Source: Nitrospira sp. (GTDB lineage: Bacteria; Nitrospirota; Nitrospiria; Nitrospirales; Nitrospiraceae). From it: a DNA stretch of 46,939 bases. Each line of letters opens with the position of its first letter. The stretch's first letter is position 1. Of the stretch, positions 28,942 to 37,594 are shown piece by piece. The notes under the pieces are model-generated. The model saw only the letters and a list, made by a program, of their open reading frames with translations, was not told the DNA's origin and searched no databases. Both the position numbers and the translations under genes were made by a program. The stretch is taken from assembly GCA_020853775.1 (NCBI GenBank), contig JADYYH010000037.1, positions 1 through 46,939 on the forward strand, read 5' to 3'.

Positions 28942-30915
28942 TCAGTCGAGGTACTGCGAGAGGAACCGCTCCATTTCCGAGAACAGGTGTAGACGATCCT
29001 CTTCCCGGCGGAGGGCTTCATCGGCCAGAGGCAATTCCACGTATCGTGAATTCGTCACACCCGCTGCGTTCAGCGCATCGGCCATCTCGCGACTCTGTAA
29101 CAGGGGCACGGAACGATCCATACGGCCATGCATCAGCAGCAGCGGCGTGCGCATCTCTTGCGCATGAGCAATGGGCGAGGTGTCGCGAAGCCGGTCCCGA
29201 TCGTTCCACCAGGAACCGATGCGTGCCTCGACCATCGGTTTCTGATTCAGGTACCACCGGCTATCGGACAGGACCTGGGTCAAGTCCGCCACCCCGCCTA
29301 CACTGACCGCGCAACGATACAGATCCGGCGTCTTCACGGCCCCCATCAACGCGGCGTATCCTCCGTAGCCCGATCCCACGATGCAGATGCGACTGGCATT
29401 CGCGATACCGGCGCGAATCGCGTATTGCACCACATCGGTCACATCGTCCTGCATCTCCAAGCCCCAGCGTTGGAATCCGCCGCGCAGCACGTCGTCTCCA
29501 TACCCTTCGGTGCCGCGAAAGCGCGGCTCCAGCACCGCCCAGCCGCGACTGACGAACCACTGCGTCCAATAGTTAAATGCACCGGGCATTCGTGCGGCCG
29601 GGCCTCCATGGGGAAACACAATCATCGGAAGGTGGCGCGGGTCCCGCTCCTTGGGCACAGTCAGAAAGACTTGCAGCTCCTTGCGGTCGCGCGCCGTGAC
29701 GTAAGTCGTGGTGGGGGCAGCCAGCGCGGCCGTCTCCAGATCGGGATACGATTTGCCGAGCAACACCATCCGTCCATCCTGCTCGTCGAAGATCGACCAG
29801 CGCGGGGGATGGGCCGCGCCGCTCGACTTCACGACATGCACCCGCCCGTCGTCGCTGCTGCTATGGATGACATTGACCGTTCCAGGAATCGCGCGATCGA
29901 TGCGCGCTTGCAAGCGCTGTGCGTCGAAGTCCCAGAAGAGTACGCGCTCATCCGTCGCGCTGAACCGGACGCCGACCACTTTCTTCCGCCCCGGCGCATA
30001 CACCAATTCACCGTTCAGATCGAACTTCGGGTCGGCCACCACGAGGATACGATCTGCCGCGCGGTCCACGACATTGAGCTTAAAAATCGCCGCCTTGCCC
30101 CGATGCTGATCCCGCACATACAACCAGGCGGGATCGGCATCGAAGGCCAACGGCACGAGTCCGGTTTCTTTGGCCAGGTCATAGTCGGCCAGTTCGCGCC
30201 AGAGGCTGGACTCCGGCAGCCTGGCAATCGCATGCACCGCGGTCTGGAATTGGCCGACCCCCGCCCGCACTGCTCCGGTCCGGTCAGCAATCCAATGCGC
30301 AATCGCGCTGCCATCCGGTTTCGAACTGGGATTCGCCTGGACCAATTGCCGATCACCCGAGTAGACATCCACCTTGTACACATCGGGAGCATCGGGATGC
30401 TCCCGATCGAGGGCAAGCAACACATGCCTGGGATCCCCGGGAATCGTACCAACGAGTTGATCCTGAAATTGAGGAACGTGTTTTTTTCCGAAAATCGACG
30501 AAAGGGAGCTCTGCTTGAGCAAATTAGGGGTCTCTTCCGTGCCGTCCCGGTTCACTGCCAACAATCGCATTTCGATGGTATCGTCTGCATTCTTCGTCGC
30601 CGCGAACCGGATACTCACGAGCAGCCGCTCATCATTGACCCAACGAAACCAGGTGATGATGTGCTCACGATTGTCCGTCGAGACGACACGGCGCATATCT
30701 TGTCCCGAAACAGTTTGGGTTTCGAGAATGGTGTGGCCCTCGTGGTTGCGCAGCACGGCCAAATGCCGGCCCGAAGGAGACAGTTGAATGGATTCGATAC
30801 GAGGCAGAAAAGCAAACGCTGCAGTGGGCGGAGGAGCGGAGCCTGGCTCGGCGTACACCGGTACCATGCTCCAGACCAGTAGCAGAACAGTGACAAGTCC
30901 GTAAATGGCCGGCAC
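28942..30915 (-). CDS. S9 prolyl-oligopeptidase-type protein, catalytic residues missing
   Basis: This 657-residue exported protein has a signal peptide (about residues 1-22), an N-terminal beta-propeller region and a C-terminal alpha/beta-hydrolase domain of the S9 family (GGPAARMPG, FRGTEGYGDDVLRGGFQRWG, LLMHGRMDRSVP). The nucleophile elbow reads CIVGSGYGGYAALM. The family Ser directly before YGGY is Gly (residue 516) here, with a Ser one position earlier. The usual GHGF containing the catalytic His is absent; the tail reads ADEALRREEDRL (about 631-642). Only the Asp (Asp600) remains. It is probably inactive as a peptidase and may act as a binding protein. Start GTG 30915 follows AGGGA. Confidence 0.85.
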   Translation of the reverse strand: MPAIYGLVTVLLLVWSMVPVYAEPGSAPPPTAAFAFLPRIESIQLSPSGRHLAVLRNHEGHTILETQTVSGQDMRRVVSTDNREHIITWFRWVNDERLLVSIRFAATKNADDTIEMRLLAVNRDGTEETPNLLKQSSLSSIFGKKHVPQFQDQLVGTIPGDPRHVLLALDREHPDAPDVYKVDVYSGDRQLVQANPSSKPDGSAIAHWIADRTGAVRAGVGQFQTAVHAIARLPESSLWRELADYDLAKETGLVPLAFDADPAWLYVRDQHRGKAAIFKLNVVDRAADRILVVADPKFDLNGELVYAPGRKKVVGVRFSATDERVLFWDFDAQRLQARIDRAIPGTVNVIHSSSDDGRVHVVKSSGAAHPPRWSIFDEQDGRMVLLGKSYPDLETAALAAPTTTYVTARDRKELQVFLTVPKERDPRHLPMIVFPHGGPAARMPGAFNYWTQWFVSRGWAVLEPRFRGTEGYGDDVLRGGFQRWGLEMQDDVTDVVQYAIRAGIANASRICIVGSGYGGYAALMGAVKTPDLYRCAVSVGGVADLTQVLSDSRWYLNQKPMVEARIGSWWNDRDRLRDTSPIAHAQEMRTPLLLMHGRMDRSVPLLQSREMADALNAAGVTNSRYVELPLADEALRREEDRLHLFSEMERFLSQYLD

Positions 30916-31060
30916 GGTCTATCCCTACAATTACCAGGACATGCCCATCCGGGGAGTACCCGACGGACTCAGTTATCACATGTTCGCGTGACGGTCGTCT
31001 ATCGCGTTTTTTTACGCACGCCGGGGCTACCCAAGGGTTGCCTGGTGCCGCCGAAGGCTC

Positions 31061-31096
31061 GATGCGGGGGCTCACCTGCTGATGAGCCCCCGCATC
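31061..31096 (-). terminator. Strong hairpin after R7
   Basis: GATGCGGGGGCTC (31061-31073) and GAGCCCCCGCATC (31084-31096) form a perfect 13-bp stem with a 10-base loop, 18 bases after the R7 stop. There is no T-run on the minus strand. It is a likely transcription end separating the R8-R7 operon from the S9 gene. Confidence 0.6.
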
Positions 31097-31114
31097 GGCA
31101 TGCTGCACATCAAT

Positions 31115-33376
31115 CTAAAACTTATACTCCACGCCGCCGAACGCGCTGATGCCCAAACCGGCGTTGGCAAACCGGTTGAATTGATCATTCACCACCACTG
31201 CCCCGGCATAGGTCTTGTCGGTCAAATTCCGCCCTTCGGCGAAGAGCGTCCAATGTTCATCGACGTTCCACCCTGACCGCAGATTGATGAGCGCATAGGA
31301 AGGATTCTTGATGGTGTTTTGGTAGTCCGTATAGAATCCCGACAACGACCACTCGACATTCGGCGCAATCCACCAGCCAGACGGATGGTCATACCGGAAC
31401 TCCACGTTCAGGCTGTGTTCCGGCGCGCCGGCAACCGTGTTCCCGTCCTTCGCAATGAGCACGCTGGGACCGACTCCTCCACCCGCCCGCACATCGTCGG
31501 TGAACTTGAAGCGCGACCAGGTATAGGCCACACGGGTCTGCAGGCTGTCTTCCTTACCGGCACCGCCCTGCGCGAACAATCCCTTCTTCAACACCATGCC
31601 GCCGCCCGCCTCCACACCGGTGTGCCTGGTGCCGTTCGCATTCTGGAAGGTGCCTTGATTGTTGATGATCGAGGCCAGAATCTCCTTTTGCATCTCGAGA
31701 TTGTAGACCGTGAGGTCCCAGTTGTAGCGCTTATTGGCCGACGTTCCTCGGTGGCCGAGCTCCAATTGCCAGGCCCGTTGCGCGTCAAGGTTGAGAAATC
31801 CCGTATTCGGCCGGCCGTTCGCATTCACCGAAGAGAGCAGCTCCAGATTGAGCGGCGCCTCATAAGCCCGGCTGGCGTTGAAATACAATTGCGAAGTCGG
31901 CGTCGTGCGATACACGAAGCCGATTTTCGGACTGATCGCATCGAAGTGCTGCAGCGGTCGATTGGTGCCGGTCGGCGTGGACGGCGTATTGGGATTGAAT
32001 GGATTGCCGGCCGGGCCGAAGTTGTCCACGGTCGCTTGGCGCGCCGTATAATCCCACCGGCCGCCGATCACAATCGTCAAATCCTTCGTGGCATCGAACG
32101 CATCTTCTGCATACAGCCCGAAATAGGTCGTCTTCGCCGTGTAGTTCTGCGTCAGGGCTCCGATGCTGCCGTTGATATTCACAAACCGCTGCTGCCGCTG
32201 GTTGCCGTACCGCGGCTGGACCCCCATGACGAACGAGTTGTTCTTCCCGAACAGGGAATTTGAATTCACGTAACGAAACTCGCCACCGACGTTATTGTTT
32301 TCCTGTCGGATCGTCTGGAAAATCGGATGATCCACATATTGATTCGAGAAATAGGGAATGATCTCGAAGTACTGATTCGGCGCGAACTCATTGTGATAGG
32401 CGATCCCGATACGCTGCAGGGTATAGTACCGGCCATAATTACAGACTTGGTTGTTCAGGTTACAGGCAAAGAAGGGAGGCGTGCCGGGAGGACTTTGTCC
32501 GCCGGGCTGTTGCCGGTTGAAAAACAGCTGCTGATTGGTCAAGGAGCCGGGGATACGTTCCGCCACGTTCGCCTGCAGGAAGTACGCGCGGATTTCCTGA
32601 TGGTTGCCGAGTTGCAGGCCGATGTTGGCATTGATGCGCTCCCGGGCCTGCTGGCTGTTATCCTGGAATCCATCCTGGCGATTGCCGGACACGCTGATGT
32701 AGTAGTCCATCGTCGCGCTCATGTTGCCCACCTGGAAGGGCTGCAGCACTTTGCCGCTCGACACCTGCCCGCTCACCATGCCGAAACTGCCGCCGAGCAT
32801 GCGCATTTGCAAGGTGGAGGCGCTGTAGCCGGTGCGGGGCACGAAGTTAATGGCACCGCCGATGCTGTTCGCGCCGTACCGCAGCGCATTGGCGCCCTTG
32901 TAGACCTCGATGCGTTCATAGGCCAGGAGGTCGATCGACTCAAAATCGGAAAACCCGTCGGCATCGCCGAAGAAAATTCCGTTGATCAGAATATTGATGC
33001 CGCGATGATGAAAATTATTGCGCAAGGATGTGCCGCGAATTTGAAACTGTCCTTCATCGGCCCCGAAGCGCGACTGAAACCGCACCCCCGGTGAGAATTG
33101 CAGGACGTCTTGCAAATTTATCGCGCGTGACTCCGTAATCTGCTTCTCTTCGATGAGGATGTTGCTGCCGGGACGGCGCGCAAATTCCTGCTTCACATCC
33201 TCCACGTTTTCGATCCGCTTCCCCTTTACCTCGACCGGCTCGACGACGATCACCGGCGCGTCTTGATCAGAGGGTTCGTCAGCCGCCCACACGACAGACC
33301 CATCCATGGCCAGCACCAACGCGATGACCAGGCAGGCCCTCCACACTCCTTTTCTCCACTGCTCAACTGACTTCAT
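31115..33376 (-). CDS. TonB-dependent receptor R7
   Basis: This is an outer-membrane receptor of 753 residues with a signal peptide to about residue 31 (MDGSVVWA/AD). The TonB-box-like region is APVIVVEPVEVKGK. Plug motifs are NLQDVLQFSPGVRFQSRFG, FQIRGTSLRNNFHHRG, ILINGIFFGDADG and IEVYKGANALRYGANSIGGA. The barrel ends FGGVEYKF. The ferric-citrate (FecA-like) type of receptor is the nearest recognised pattern. ATG 33376 follows GAAGGAG. The gene comes 76 bases after the amidohydrolase; the spacer holds two short palindromes. The gene is followed by a strong hairpin. An extracellular loop contains two Cys (FFACNLNNQVCNYG), probably a disulphide. Confidence 0.92.
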   Translation of the reverse strand: MKSVEQWRKGVWRACLVIALVLAMDGSVVWAADEPSDQDAPVIVVEPVEVKGKRIENVEDVKQEFARRPGSNILIEEKQITESRAINLQDVLQFSPGVRFQSRFGADEGQFQIRGTSLRNNFHHRGINILINGIFFGDADGFSDFESIDLLAYERIEVYKGANALRYGANSIGGAINFVPRTGYSASTLQMRMLGGSFGMVSGQVSSGKVLQPFQVGNMSATMDYYISVSGNRQDGFQDNSQQARERINANIGLQLGNHQEIRAYFLQANVAERIPGSLTNQQLFFNRQQPGGQSPPGTPPFFACNLNNQVCNYGRYYTLQRIGIAYHNEFAPNQYFEIIPYFSNQYVDHPIFQTIRQENNNVGGEFRYVNSNSLFGKNNSFVMGVQPRYGNQRQQRFVNINGSIGALTQNYTAKTTYFGLYAEDAFDATKDLTIVIGGRWDYTARQATVDNFGPAGNPFNPNTPSTPTGTNRPLQHFDAISPKIGFVYRTTPTSQLYFNASRAYEAPLNLELLSSVNANGRPNTGFLNLDAQRAWQLELGHRGTSANKRYNWDLTVYNLEMQKEILASIINNQGTFQNANGTRHTGVEAGGGMVLKKGLFAQGGAGKEDSLQTRVAYTWSRFKFTDDVRAGGGVGPSVLIAKDGNTVAGAPEHSLNVEFRYDHPSGWWIAPNVEWSLSGFYTDYQNTIKNPSYALINLRSGWNVDEHWTLFAEGRNLTDKTYAGAVVVNDQFNRFANAGLGISAFGGVEYKF

Positions 33377-33452: not shown

Positions 33453-34913
33453 CTAGTGGGAACTCTGCCCGGTTCCTAAAGAGGCAGCATCAGGACCGAC
33501 GAAATGGTCCAGCGGCACACCCTGTTTGAATCTGCGACGGATGGCCTGTACCTGCGTAAAATCTTCAATGGGATTGCCGGCCAGCGCGAGAAAGCTGGCT
33601 TCGTATCCCTCCGCAAACCGTCCGATTTTTCGTTCCGGGAAAATGGCAGCCGGGGTAGCTTCGCACCACATCTTGAGCAACGTGAGGTTGTCGAAGAGGT
33701 GAAATGTGCGCAAATGCAGCACTTCGGCCAGCGAGGTGTCGGCATGGTCGCTGCCGATCACCACAGCCGCTCCCGCGCGATGAAGGAGACGGAGATTGTC
33801 TTTCAATACCTGTCCCTCCGACTCAGCTGGGGCCGGTTGGTGATGGTCGCTCGGTTCGGATGCAGGCCCCTCGTGCTGGCCATGCGGATGATGCCCTCCG
33901 ATCGACGGCATGGCGCTTCCGGCCACGCTCGTGGTCACGACACGCACCTTCCGTTCCGCCGCGAATCGCGCATCATCCTCCGTCAGCCTGGCACGTTCCG
34001 CATCGTCCACACCTTGAATCAACCAGCCCGGCACATGCGCCAGTTCATCGACGCCGGCTCGAACCGCCTGTCGAAAATCTGCCGCCGTTTCGACATGGGC
34101 CGTCACGCGAAGCCCGGCCGCATGCGCCCTCGCGACAATGCCGGGTACCAACGCAGGATGCAGTCCTTGCCTGTGATGACCGGGCCGTCCACCTGCCGAT
34201 CTGCCATCGTCTTCAGAATGCACCAGATACACTTTGAGAAAATCCGGGCGGCCGCTCATGACCAGCGGCCACTTGGCCTCGATCTCGGCCTCTGTCTCGA
34301 CCACGACGTATGCCCGATTCTCGAACCACCCCCGTTCGAGCGGCCCCACCGCCGGCTCATACCGTCCCACGCGCAACACATCTTCGTATAAGGCCACGGG
34401 ATGCCCGCCGCGCCCCGTGAGGCCGGCATGGGCAAAGGTCGCATCGATACTCGTCGGCACATTGAGGGACTGTCGAATCTGCAGGGCAAAGTCGCGCACG
34501 TCGTTGGGATTCTTCACATAGAACACGCCGTCCTGCAGGTAGCGCTGCACAACCGCCTGCATATTCCACCGCCCTTCGACATTGTGGTTGTGCGCCTCTC
34601 CGAACGGCGGGACGATGTAGAGGCCCGCAAGATCCACGGTCTGAATCGGCCCCGACGGCAGTTTCCTTGTCAGGCGTCCCTCGGTCGAATACCAGGTAGC
34701 GGGTTGAAATCCTTCCCCGTCGAACCACCGGCCGTTAACGAAGGCATAGTGCTCTGCCGCCGGCACGGTTGGAAAGCCCGCACCCCTTGCGCAGCCGGAC
34801 GCGTGCGCGATCAGCACCAACGCGAGCAGAGACCACATGAGGGTCGTGCCTCGCGTGCTACTAACCGCGAATCCCCTGACGGTCGTTCGCGGCGCCATTC
34901 CCCTGTTCGTCAC
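33453..34913 (-). CDS. Lipoprotein amidohydrolase with His-rich insertion
   Basis: This 486-residue protein belongs to the metal-dependent amidohydrolase superfamily (imidazolonepropionase-like group). The N-terminus ends LIAHASGC (Cys41), a lipobox, so it is likely anchored in the envelope. Active-site motifs: GEAHNHN (His108, His110), FLKVYL (Lys227, the bridging carbamylated Lys position), VTAHVET (His273), LAHVPG (His293) and VIGSDHADTS (Asp389). A His-rich segment (about 339-358, GGHHPHGQH and SDHHQ) is inserted before the last active-site strand. The GTG at 34913 overlaps the stop of the small HTH gene (GTGA), implying coupling; ATG 34898 is an alternative. Substrate unknown; it may process an imported metallophore or peptide. 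Confidence 0.82.
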   Translation of the reverse strand: MTNRGMAPRTTVRGFAVSSTRGTTLMWSLLALVLIAHASGCARGAGFPTVPAAEHYAFVNGRWFDGEGFQPATWYSTEGRLTRKLPSGPIQTVDLAGLYIVPPFGEAHNHNVEGRWNMQAVVQRYLQDGVFYVKNPNDVRDFALQIRQSLNVPTSIDATFAHAGLTGRGGHPVALYEDVLRVGRYEPAVGPLERGWFENRAYVVVETEAEIEAKWPLVMSGRPDFLKVYLVHSEDDGRSAGGRPGHHRQGLHPALVPGIVARAHAAGLRVTAHVETAADFRQAVRAGVDELAHVPGWLIQGVDDAERARLTEDDARFAAERKVRVVTTSVAGSAMPSIGGHHPHGQHEGPASEPSDHHQPAPAESEGQVLKDNLRLLHRAGAAVVIGSDHADTSLAEVLHLRTFHLFDNLTLLKMWCEATPAAIFPERKIGRFAEGYEASFLALAGNPIEDFTQVQAIRRRFKQGVPLDHFVGPDAASLGTGQSSH

Positions 34914-35168: not shown

Positions 35169-37514
35169 TTAGAACAAACCGAACGTCACCCCGCCGTAAA
35201 TCGCCCGGCCATACCCGGCAAAAAACGCCTGTTGCAGCGCGGCAGCCCCGGCGGTTTCTCCGCCGATCACCTGCCCGGAGGTGGCGTATTTCTTGTCGGC
35301 GATGTTGTCCACTTCCACATAGAACTTGGCGAACCGGAACCAGCTGTTCTTGAGATCGACATTCTTGTGCACATTGATGTTTGCGATCATGTACGACGGA
35401 ATACCGAACGTGTTGCTGTTGTTCAGGAAGTAGCTGTTGTAGTAACTCCCCTCGACCCAGGCGCCCCAGCCGGTCGCCGCATGGTCATAGGCCACCTTGG
35501 TGTTGAACACGTCGGTCGGCACATTGGGCACTTTGTTGCCGTCCCGCACGAGGAGCCCGGCAGCGGTGTTCAGGCGGTCGGCGAAGTTGACATACTTCGC
35601 TTCGATATGGGTATAGGCACCGGACAATCGCAGCCCTTCCATCGGACGCCAATCGTAGAAGGCCTCGATTCCCTTGTACTGCGAGGAGTCGGCGTTCACC
35701 GAGGCTGTGTTCGTCCCGGACACCGCCTGCGTGATGATTTCATCCTTGAAGAAGGTCCAGAACCCCACGAGTTGCACGGTCAAGGTCTTGGTGAGTTTGG
35801 ACTCGGTACCGAGTTCAAAATTCAGGTTCTTCTGCGGCTTCAAATCGAAGTTGGTACCGGGCTGCCCCGTCACCGGATCTCGCAACAGATTGCCGAATCC
35901 GGGAATACCGTATCCCGTCGAGGCCCGCACCCAATGGCGCTGCTCGTCCGTCGGCTTCCACGTGACAGACATTTCCGGCGCCCAATTGGTGTACGTCCGT
36001 TCGGCGCCCGCCCGGCTGCTCACCGCACCGCCTGTGTAGCCGATCGATTGCACGCTCAACTGCGATTGCTCGAATCCCAACCCGGCTGCGAAGGTGACCT
36101 TCGGGATGAACTCCAGTTCCTCCCGGATGCGACCGCCCACGTTGCGGATCGTACCGCGCGAATTTTGGAGGAGCGCCCCGCGGGTGCCGAAGCCGTCCGC
36201 GAGATTCTGAAAGGTCTGAGATTCCTGCTCCATATTGTTCAGAAAGAACCCGACATAACTCCGCAACGGCATGTCGAAGAGCCGCCCGTCGTGCCGCAAA
36301 TCGGCATAATGTTTGTAGTTCGGATTCACGTTGTCGCTGATTTGCGAGAAGGTCTGGTTGATATCCTTCACATCGTAATCGGCCTCGATCGTCAACACGG
36401 TGTTGGCGTTGATCTGTCGCTCGTAGATCCCGCCGATGATCGTCCGGCGGTCCAATCGCCGCTGCGCCAACCGCTCGGCATCGCTACAGGTGTTGGCGTT
36501 ACACACGACGTTCGTTCCGCCCGCCTGCCGGCGATCGGCGTTGAACTGCCCCTGGGTCAATCGCGTCGGCACCCGGGCATCGAGCCAGTTCGTAATGGCC
36601 TTGAAGTAGAAATTCTGCTTGTCGTCGATCTTGAAGCGAAAATTCAGGTTCATGGTCTGCGTGGTGTAATTGCTGTTTCTGATGAACCCGTCTTCCGCCA
36701 CGTTGCTGACAAACAACGACACATCGAGATTTTCGAACTGCTGGCCGACTGCAAGACCTTCCTTGTGGTACCCGAACGACCCGCCGCTTAAAAACGTTTC
36801 CACGCCGTTGATATCACTCCCGCGTTTCGTTCGGAAATGCACCATGCCGCCCAAGGCGTAGTTGTCATAGAGCGACGAAGACGCGCCTCTCACCACCTCC
36901 ACGCTGCGCATGAACCAGGGATCGTGAATGTCCAACCGCGACAACCCGTCCGACTGCGTTTGAATGAAGCCGTCTTCGTACATCTTGATGTCGCGCACGG
37001 CGAAGGTGGTTTTGGCACCCTGGCCGCGGATCATCATGCTGAAGTCGCGCGGGCCGTTGGCCTGCCGCAGCACCACACCGGGGAGGGACTCCATCGATTC
37101 TTTCATCGTCCTGGTGGGCTGCGACTCCGTCTCCGATTGTTCCGTCGAGGACAACGACAATCCCTCCGGTCGTCGCTGCACGCGATTGCTGACGATACTC
37201 ACATCGGACAGCTCATATTGCGGAATCGGCTCCGCGGCGACCGCCGATGACGATTCGTCCACCGCCGCCGGTTGAACCGGTTTCACCGGCGTGACCACCG
37301 CGCCGGCCGCCGGTTGCTGCTGCAACTCCTCCAGCTCGCGAAGAATGTTTTGCAATTGATCCCGGAGGTCGCGCTCCCGAGCGCTTTTCTCCACGACGGT
37401 TTCGGCCCCCGTCCCCTCCTGCGCAAACGAGCTGGGGAGGGATATCGGCATAGCTGACAACAAGGCACCACATAGAACGGCATGAAGTTTGAACGCATCA
37501 CGGCGGGCCCACAT
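35169..37514 (-). CDS. TonB-dependent receptor R8 with N-terminal coiled coil
   Basis: This is an outer-membrane receptor of 781 residues, closely related to R3 (and R5). The signal peptide ends near residue 31 (SSFA/QEG), with a coiled coil at about 44-68 (RERDLRDQLQNILRELEEL). The TonB-box-like region is QYELSDVSIVSNRVQRRPEG. The plug has QPTRTMKESMESLPGVVL, MMIRGQGAKTTFAVRD, MYEDGFIQTQSDGLSR and SSSLYDNYALGGMVHFRTKRG. The barrel ends GGVTFGLF. A Cys pair occurs in a loop (VVCNANTCSD). ATG 37514 is six bases after GGGAGG and is preferred to ATG 37520 and the longer frame. It follows TlpA and small protein F; the 116-bp leader carries a perfect palindrome. Confidence 0.92.
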   Translation of the reverse strand: MWARRDAFKLHAVLCGALLSAMPISLPSSFAQEGTGAETVVEKSARERDLRDQLQNILRELEELQQQPAAGAVVTPVKPVQPAAVDESSSAVAAEPIPQYELSDVSIVSNRVQRRPEGLSLSSTEQSETESQPTRTMKESMESLPGVVLRQANGPRDFSMMIRGQGAKTTFAVRDIKMYEDGFIQTQSDGLSRLDIHDPWFMRSVEVVRGASSSLYDNYALGGMVHFRTKRGSDINGVETFLSGGSFGYHKEGLAVGQQFENLDVSLFVSNVAEDGFIRNSNYTTQTMNLNFRFKIDDKQNFYFKAITNWLDARVPTRLTQGQFNADRRQAGGTNVVCNANTCSDAERLAQRRLDRRTIIGGIYERQINANTVLTIEADYDVKDINQTFSQISDNVNPNYKHYADLRHDGRLFDMPLRSYVGFFLNNMEQESQTFQNLADGFGTRGALLQNSRGTIRNVGGRIREELEFIPKVTFAAGLGFEQSQLSVQSIGYTGGAVSSRAGAERTYTNWAPEMSVTWKPTDEQRHWVRASTGYGIPGFGNLLRDPVTGQPGTNFDLKPQKNLNFELGTESKLTKTLTVQLVGFWTFFKDEIITQAVSGTNTASVNADSSQYKGIEAFYDWRPMEGLRLSGAYTHIEAKYVNFADRLNTAAGLLVRDGNKVPNVPTDVFNTKVAYDHAATGWGAWVEGSYYNSYFLNNSNTFGIPSYMIANINVHKNVDLKNSWFRFAKFYVEVDNIADKKYATSGQVIGGETAGAAALQQAFFAGYGRAIYGGVTFGLF

Positions 37515-37594
37515 ACACATCCTCCCGGCACAACTGTGCACACGACAGAAGAGACCATCCCCTCGCGCCCCTGTCTGAACGGACGAGAAGAGAA

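Follow-up and report, generated by a model that had tools for sequence, protein, structure and literature searches.

What can a protein with the body of an S9 peptidase do for its cell once both the nucleophile serine and the catalytic histidine are gone? S9 pseudoenzymes are known from animal ion-channel subunits; here, a candidate is found in a bacterial uptake locus. The gene lies on a contig stretch of 46,939 nucleotides (the window) from a Nitrospira genome (4.25 Mb, 121 contigs), and it points to an uncharacterised uptake component in these major nitrite oxidisers.

The protein and its predicted fold

The gene and the parts of its product are as follows.

28942..30915, minus strand: S9-like gene of the putative pseudoenzyme, 657 amino acids, GTG start listed (open reading frame, Pfam and fold match)
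30904-30915, minus strand: start codon region GTGCCGGCCATT, with GTG listed as the start
30850..30915, minus strand: signal-peptide-like N-terminus (MPAIYGLVTVLLLVWSMVPVYA), read by eye
29701..30798, minus strand: beta-propeller domain, about residues 40-405 (AF2 secondary structure)
28945..29688, minus strand: alpha/beta-hydrolase domain, residues 410-657 (Pfam, AF2 and structural match)

Translation of the frame gives no internal stop. The Peptidase_S9 model of Pfam matches with 117.8 bits against a curated cut-off of 22.6, as expected for homology to the S9 prolyl oligopeptidase family, and the solved proteins nearest in sequence alignment are acylaminoacyl peptidases and related S9 enzymes. 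An AlphaFold (AF2) model, built from 20 sequences, is of middling confidence (mean pLDDT 73.8, pTM 0.71, residues 599-603 below 50). Its best structural match is the acylaminoacyl peptidase of A. pernix, 3o4j (Z 27.6 over 529 residues, rmsd 5.1), and the model displays a beta-propeller followed by an alpha/beta-hydrolase. From the Pfam match, the nearest solved proteins and the model matches together, it follows that the protein has an S9 body consisting of these two domains. Acylaminoacyl or S9C-type peptidases (A. pernix AAP 1ve6/3o4j; 5l8s) are thus the nearest solved structures in both fold and sequence, and they share with the window protein the HGGP segment, the glycines of the elbow and the triad Asp. 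The window protein differs from them in having neither the Ser nor the His of the triad and in carrying a signal-like N-terminus; judging from this by-eye reading, it is apparently exported to the periplasm. Several orthologs probably start at an ATG in codon position 4, and in one ortholog GCG replaces the GTG.

The active site

Three codons define the state of the triad.

29368..29370, minus strand: GGC, Gly516, in the place of the nucleophile (from the alignment with solved S9 enzymes)
29116..29118, minus strand: GAT, Asp600, the triad acid, invariant in the clade
29017..29019, minus strand: GAA, Glu633, at the position of the catalytic His; Gln, Glu or His in orthologs and Tyr in G011, a genome outside the genus

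Residues 510-520 read ICIVGSGYGGY, with GSGYGGY as the elbow. In the alignment to solved S9 enzymes, the family Ser falls on Gly516 and the family His on Glu633; the nucleophile Ser of GxSxGG and the C-terminal catalytic His, both required in an active S9 enzyme, are therefore missing. The catalytic Asp is present as Asp600, and the HGGP segment and the elbow glycines are likewise retained. An initial annotation of this DNA, made by reading the sequence, had noticed the Gly in place of Ser before YGGY, the retained Asp600 and the intact frame, and the alignment and translation bear out all three, with the Gly codon at the coordinates it gave. It had also seen the His motif, of DEGHGF type, as replaced by DEALRR. 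The absence of the His is correct for this protein, but the motif had been matched by eye, and the alignment puts the loss elsewhere: where closer relatives have G-D-H (GDHWLS, GDHYLS), the window protein has A631-D632-E633, and the lost His thus corresponds to position 633. An assembly or sequencing error at the nucleophile is ruled out by the presence of the Gly in 25 separately assembled genomes, among them the complete chromosome of Ca. Nitrospira defluvii (FP929003.1, L033).

It could be imagined that the protein is still an enzyme, either with Ser515 or another residue as a new nucleophile or with a different chemistry that makes use of Asp600 and residue 633. Such a reading would account for the retention of Asp600 and the HGGP segment, and one ortholog, in G020, combines Asp516, Asp600 and His633. 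However, position 515 varies between Ser and Ala among orthologs, with six changes, and Ser515 is ruled out as a shifted nucleophile, the case that the initial annotation had named as refuting its reading. Among the 58 positions newly fixed in the clade there is no Ser, Cys or His near the elbow, which rules out a replacement catalytic residue in that region. Moreover, since residue 633 may be Gln, Glu, His or Tyr, there is no fixed general base. Continued catalysis is thus improbable.

Distribution and residue states in relatives

The survey comprised 175 genomes of the family, 29 of which belong to the genus of the window. The S9 gene occurs in 27 of these 29; the exceptions are G031, with the paralog described below only, and G023, which is 84% complete and has neither. 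Residue 516 is readable in 26 of the 27 copies and is Gly in 25, Asp in one (G020) and Ser in none. At position 633 the 26 readable copies have Gln (12), Glu (8) or His (6). The combined loss of Ser and His that the initial annotation described is accordingly true of the window copy and not of the family as a whole, with 20 of 26 lacking the His and 6 keeping it. Outside the genus, G011 has Asn516 and Tyr633, and G102 has Gly516 with the His kept. The ortholog of G119, from a sister genus, has Ser516, Asp600 and His633 all intact, and its gene is adjoined by the same receptor, thioredoxin-like and BNR genes as in the window.

A Ser-intact paralog (L059-L065), 45-47% identical, is found in the same genus and in G047. 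It resembles the window protein in architecture, in genus and in its nearness to TonB and TonB-receptor genes, and differs from it in that Ser, Asp and His are kept, with GGSYGGY, the Asp and GDHxLS all present, as would be expected of an active peptidase. Losing the Ser is uncommon in S9 relatives: all 12 other S9 proteins from genus and order relatives have retained it.

Five complete-enough genomes of the genus (G017, G019, G020, G021 and G039) carry the Ser-less form together with the Ser-intact paralog. Here the former might act as a regulator or decoy of its active sibling, through heterodimer formation or competition for substrate. Most genomes of the genus, that of the window included, show only the dead form of this S9 family, however, and in the window's genome (G000) the single Peptidase_S9 match at E 1e-8 is the window protein itself, as is the case in many other members. 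Regulation of a sibling can therefore not be the general explanation, and there is little likelihood that it is the main role.

Some individual copies deserve mention. The G020 ortholog (L073:8934-11075), with Asp at the nucleophile site and the His kept, is a single case; the order Asp516-Asp600-His633 is that of the Asp-nucleophile alpha/beta-hydrolases. In G047 a remnant (L067:8295-8807) comprises the last 140 residues, with the His, at the same place in an operon that is otherwise kept. In G027 (L066) the Ser-intact paralog is split into several frames. The copy of G005 is identical to that of G032 (L020 and L018) despite the other genus, on a 3.7-kb contig that is possibly misbinned.

Order of loss of the catalytic residues

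In the tree, G102 and G119 are joined (100/100), and separately from these G011 and the genus clade (100/100). The nucleophile states require four changes on this tree, and the Ser would have been lost at least twice, unless it was regained by G119. A regain is the less probable course, since every residue that is otherwise invariant in the Ser-intact relatives, for example Gly257, Asp448, Asn465, Glu606 and Gly631, is common to G119 and G102. Within the genus clade, residues of this invariant set have changed too. The nearest intact relatives encode the Ser by AGC or AGT, and the Gly is mostly encoded by GGC, a single transition away.

The aligned states indicate that the nucleophile Ser was replaced, mostly by Gly, at or near the base of the window's genus. 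They indicate further that this loss came first and was fixed in the genus, and that the His, then free to vary, has been going piecemeal. There are thus apparent successive stages among living relatives: G119 is intact, G102 has lost the Ser only, and in the genus the Ser is gone, the second shell has changed and the His is drifting. These stages make the order of steps from enzyme to binding protein directly testable.

Constraint on the gene and its leader

A simple Nei-Gojobori count, restricted to pairs whose dS is below 1.5, gives a median dN/dS of 0.141 for the dead clade and of 0.159 for the intact paralog. Parsimony on the tree assigns to position 516 two amino-acid changes against seven codon changes, and the Gly is therefore being kept. 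Asp600 shows no amino-acid change against six codon changes. At position 633, amino-acid and codon changes number eight each, the mean for the catalytic domain being 2.7; this position belongs to about the fastest tenth of the domain and never changes in the intact paralog. The propeller evolves faster than the catalytic domain in the intact paralog, and this is not so in the dead clade. Relative to the active paralog, residues 255-400 (propeller blades) are slow in the dead clade and residues 560-657 are fast. The propeller has thus gained in relative constraint at the expense of the catalytic domain (ratio of ratios 0.69, bootstrap 95% 0.55-0.88), a shift that is only suggestive because the two sets, 24 dead-clade and 7 intact-paralog rows, differ in size and depth.

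Constraint extends to the region in front of the gene, where two features are found.

30916..31025, minus strand: conserved promoter-like leader with a candidate extended -10 TGTGATAAC (hexamer 30972-30977) and the palindrome-like GGRCATGTCC
31060..31097, minus strand: perfect hairpin of 15 bp, GC-rich and lacking a T-run, that separates the TonB-receptor gene from the leader

Some 110 bp immediately 5' of the start are conserved across 18 loci of the genus, also where the preceding gene differs. Their mean pairwise identity is 76%; in the sequence next upstream it falls to 42%, and the fourfold-degenerate sites of the S9 genes themselves give 50%. Within the leader TGTGATAA is invariant and possibly represents an extended -10 element. 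As a standard sigma-70 promoter and terminator scan of 30800-31300 called nothing, we only infer the promoter function. The leader motif is rejected as the operator of a regulon, since the window holds no second close match to it and the whole genome only one, with three mismatches. Similar stem-loops stand at the same distance between receptor gene and leader in several orthologs; a search for Rfam families found none within the window.

A gene in decay and about to be lost might leave the kind of remnant seen in G047, and the broken active paralog in G027 could be taken in the same sense. Decay is nevertheless highly improbable: 27 of 29 genus genomes retain the gene, the frame is open in the full-length copies, dN/dS stands at 0.14, and conservation of the leader exceeds that of synonymous sites. 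Loss of a catalytic residue is here combined with purifying selection, and from these sequence comparisons the window protein is very probably a conserved pseudoenzyme. The initial annotation had proposed a candidate pseudoenzyme and not simple decay, a proposal now strengthened by the conservation throughout the genus, the dN/dS, the retention of Gly516 across codon changes, the conserved leader and the existence of intact relatives.

Genomic neighbourhood

Three genes next to the S9 gene belong to one conserved block.

31115..33376, minus strand: gene of the TonB-dependent receptor that directly precedes the S9 gene
33453..34913, minus strand: amidohydrolase gene
35169..37541, minus strand: the block's other conserved TonB-dependent receptor gene

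Within the window there are eight TonB-dependent receptor genes, two PepSY-TM, one HlyD-type, two MacB/FtsX-type and one TonB gene. The order BNR, thioredoxin-like, receptor 35169, amidohydrolase, receptor 31115, S9 is kept in most loci of the genus. In all 18 loci with a visible upstream side, the S9 gene comes directly after a TonB-receptor gene. The two receptors are found in 42 (31115) and 83 (35169) of the 175 family genomes, mostly without the S9 protein, and the S9 gene persists in genomes that have no match to one or other of them. A one-to-one partnership with either adjoining receptor is not supported by this distribution and is unlikely, since receptors and S9 gene occur apart; the S9 gene is therefore to be seen as an accessory of the locus and an obligate part of neither receptor.

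A general periplasmic scaffold or chaperone, unconnected with the adjoining receptors, would be compatible with the gene having its own leader, with the hairpin that separates it from the receptor gene and with its persistence when one receptor is lost. Against this, a receptor gene always comes immediately before the S9 gene, rearranged loci (L068, L071, L043) included, and the Ser-intact paralogs likewise lie near TonB and TonB-receptor genes. A role of this general kind is rather unlikely.

The eight receptor genes span 8405-37541, and at least two others are related to the 35169 receptor (66% and 52% identical), which suggests local duplication. In the amidohydrolase the metal-ligand motifs (HNH, K, H, H, D) are, by eye, apparently kept, and the protein weakly resembles an Xaa-Pro dipeptidase model.

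Proposed role and comparison with known systems

We regard the protein as probably an exported S9 pseudoenzyme that serves the uptake locus by binding or as a scaffold. Given S9 chemistry and the absence of the Ser, no acyl-enzyme could form. The propeller and the empty hydrolase pocket would instead hold a ligand or contact a partner in the periplasm, for example a TonB receptor, and the protein may receive, hold or gate substrate imported by the adjoining receptors. A role in uptake appears most likely because the gene adjoins TonB receptors and because of the analogy with DPP10. Both partner and ligand are what we infer from this setting. The initial annotation had suggested a periplasmic binding protein for a peptide-based ligand; the TonB receptors alongside suit a part in ligand uptake, and the ligand is possibly a peptide. 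More tentatively, the S9 peptidase of the genus, in most members the sole one found, could have been turned into a non-catalytic binding or gating component of TonB-dependent uptake in the periplasm, a prokaryotic parallel to DPP10 in which living intermediates show the order of the steps.

Human DPP10 (DPPY) and DPP6 (DPPX) are S9B pseudoenzymes of Kv4 channels (PMC4350108, PMC4873792). DPP10 has Gly in place of Ser (GKGYGG) and uses its S9 body as a subunit of a potassium channel; changing the Gly back to Ser did not restore its activity (PMC4350108). The fly ortholog of DPP10 is still a peptidase (PMC4873792). As in the Nitrospira protein, an S9 propeller and an alpha/beta-hydrolase are combined with replacement of the nucleophile Ser, by Gly in DPP10 and by Asp in DPP6. 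The dead body is retained for a binding role, theirs established and that in Nitrospira proposed, and an active ortholog exists. The Nitrospira protein differs in being bacterial, S9C-like and not S9B, apparently exported and encoded in a TonB-receptor locus. DPP10 also retains its His759, whereas the His of the Nitrospira clade is drifting. On this analogy, the best reading of the window protein is that of a bacterial counterpart of human DPP10. In the open-licence literature, we found no S9 pseudoenzyme in a bacterial uptake locus or with TonB receptors, and nothing on this protein in Nitrospira.

Lasso peptide isopeptidases of the AtxE2 type are S9-related enzymes that have been reported beside TonB receptors. 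The window protein falls short of the model for these: it scores 35.7 bits with NCBIfam NF033523 against a cut-off of 400, and the catalytic Ser is absent. Another link between the S9 group and uptake loci is provided by a Sphaerotilus plasmid (L079), where a heme/iron uptake cluster that includes a TonB receptor also holds a 34%-identical S9 peptidase with its Ser intact.
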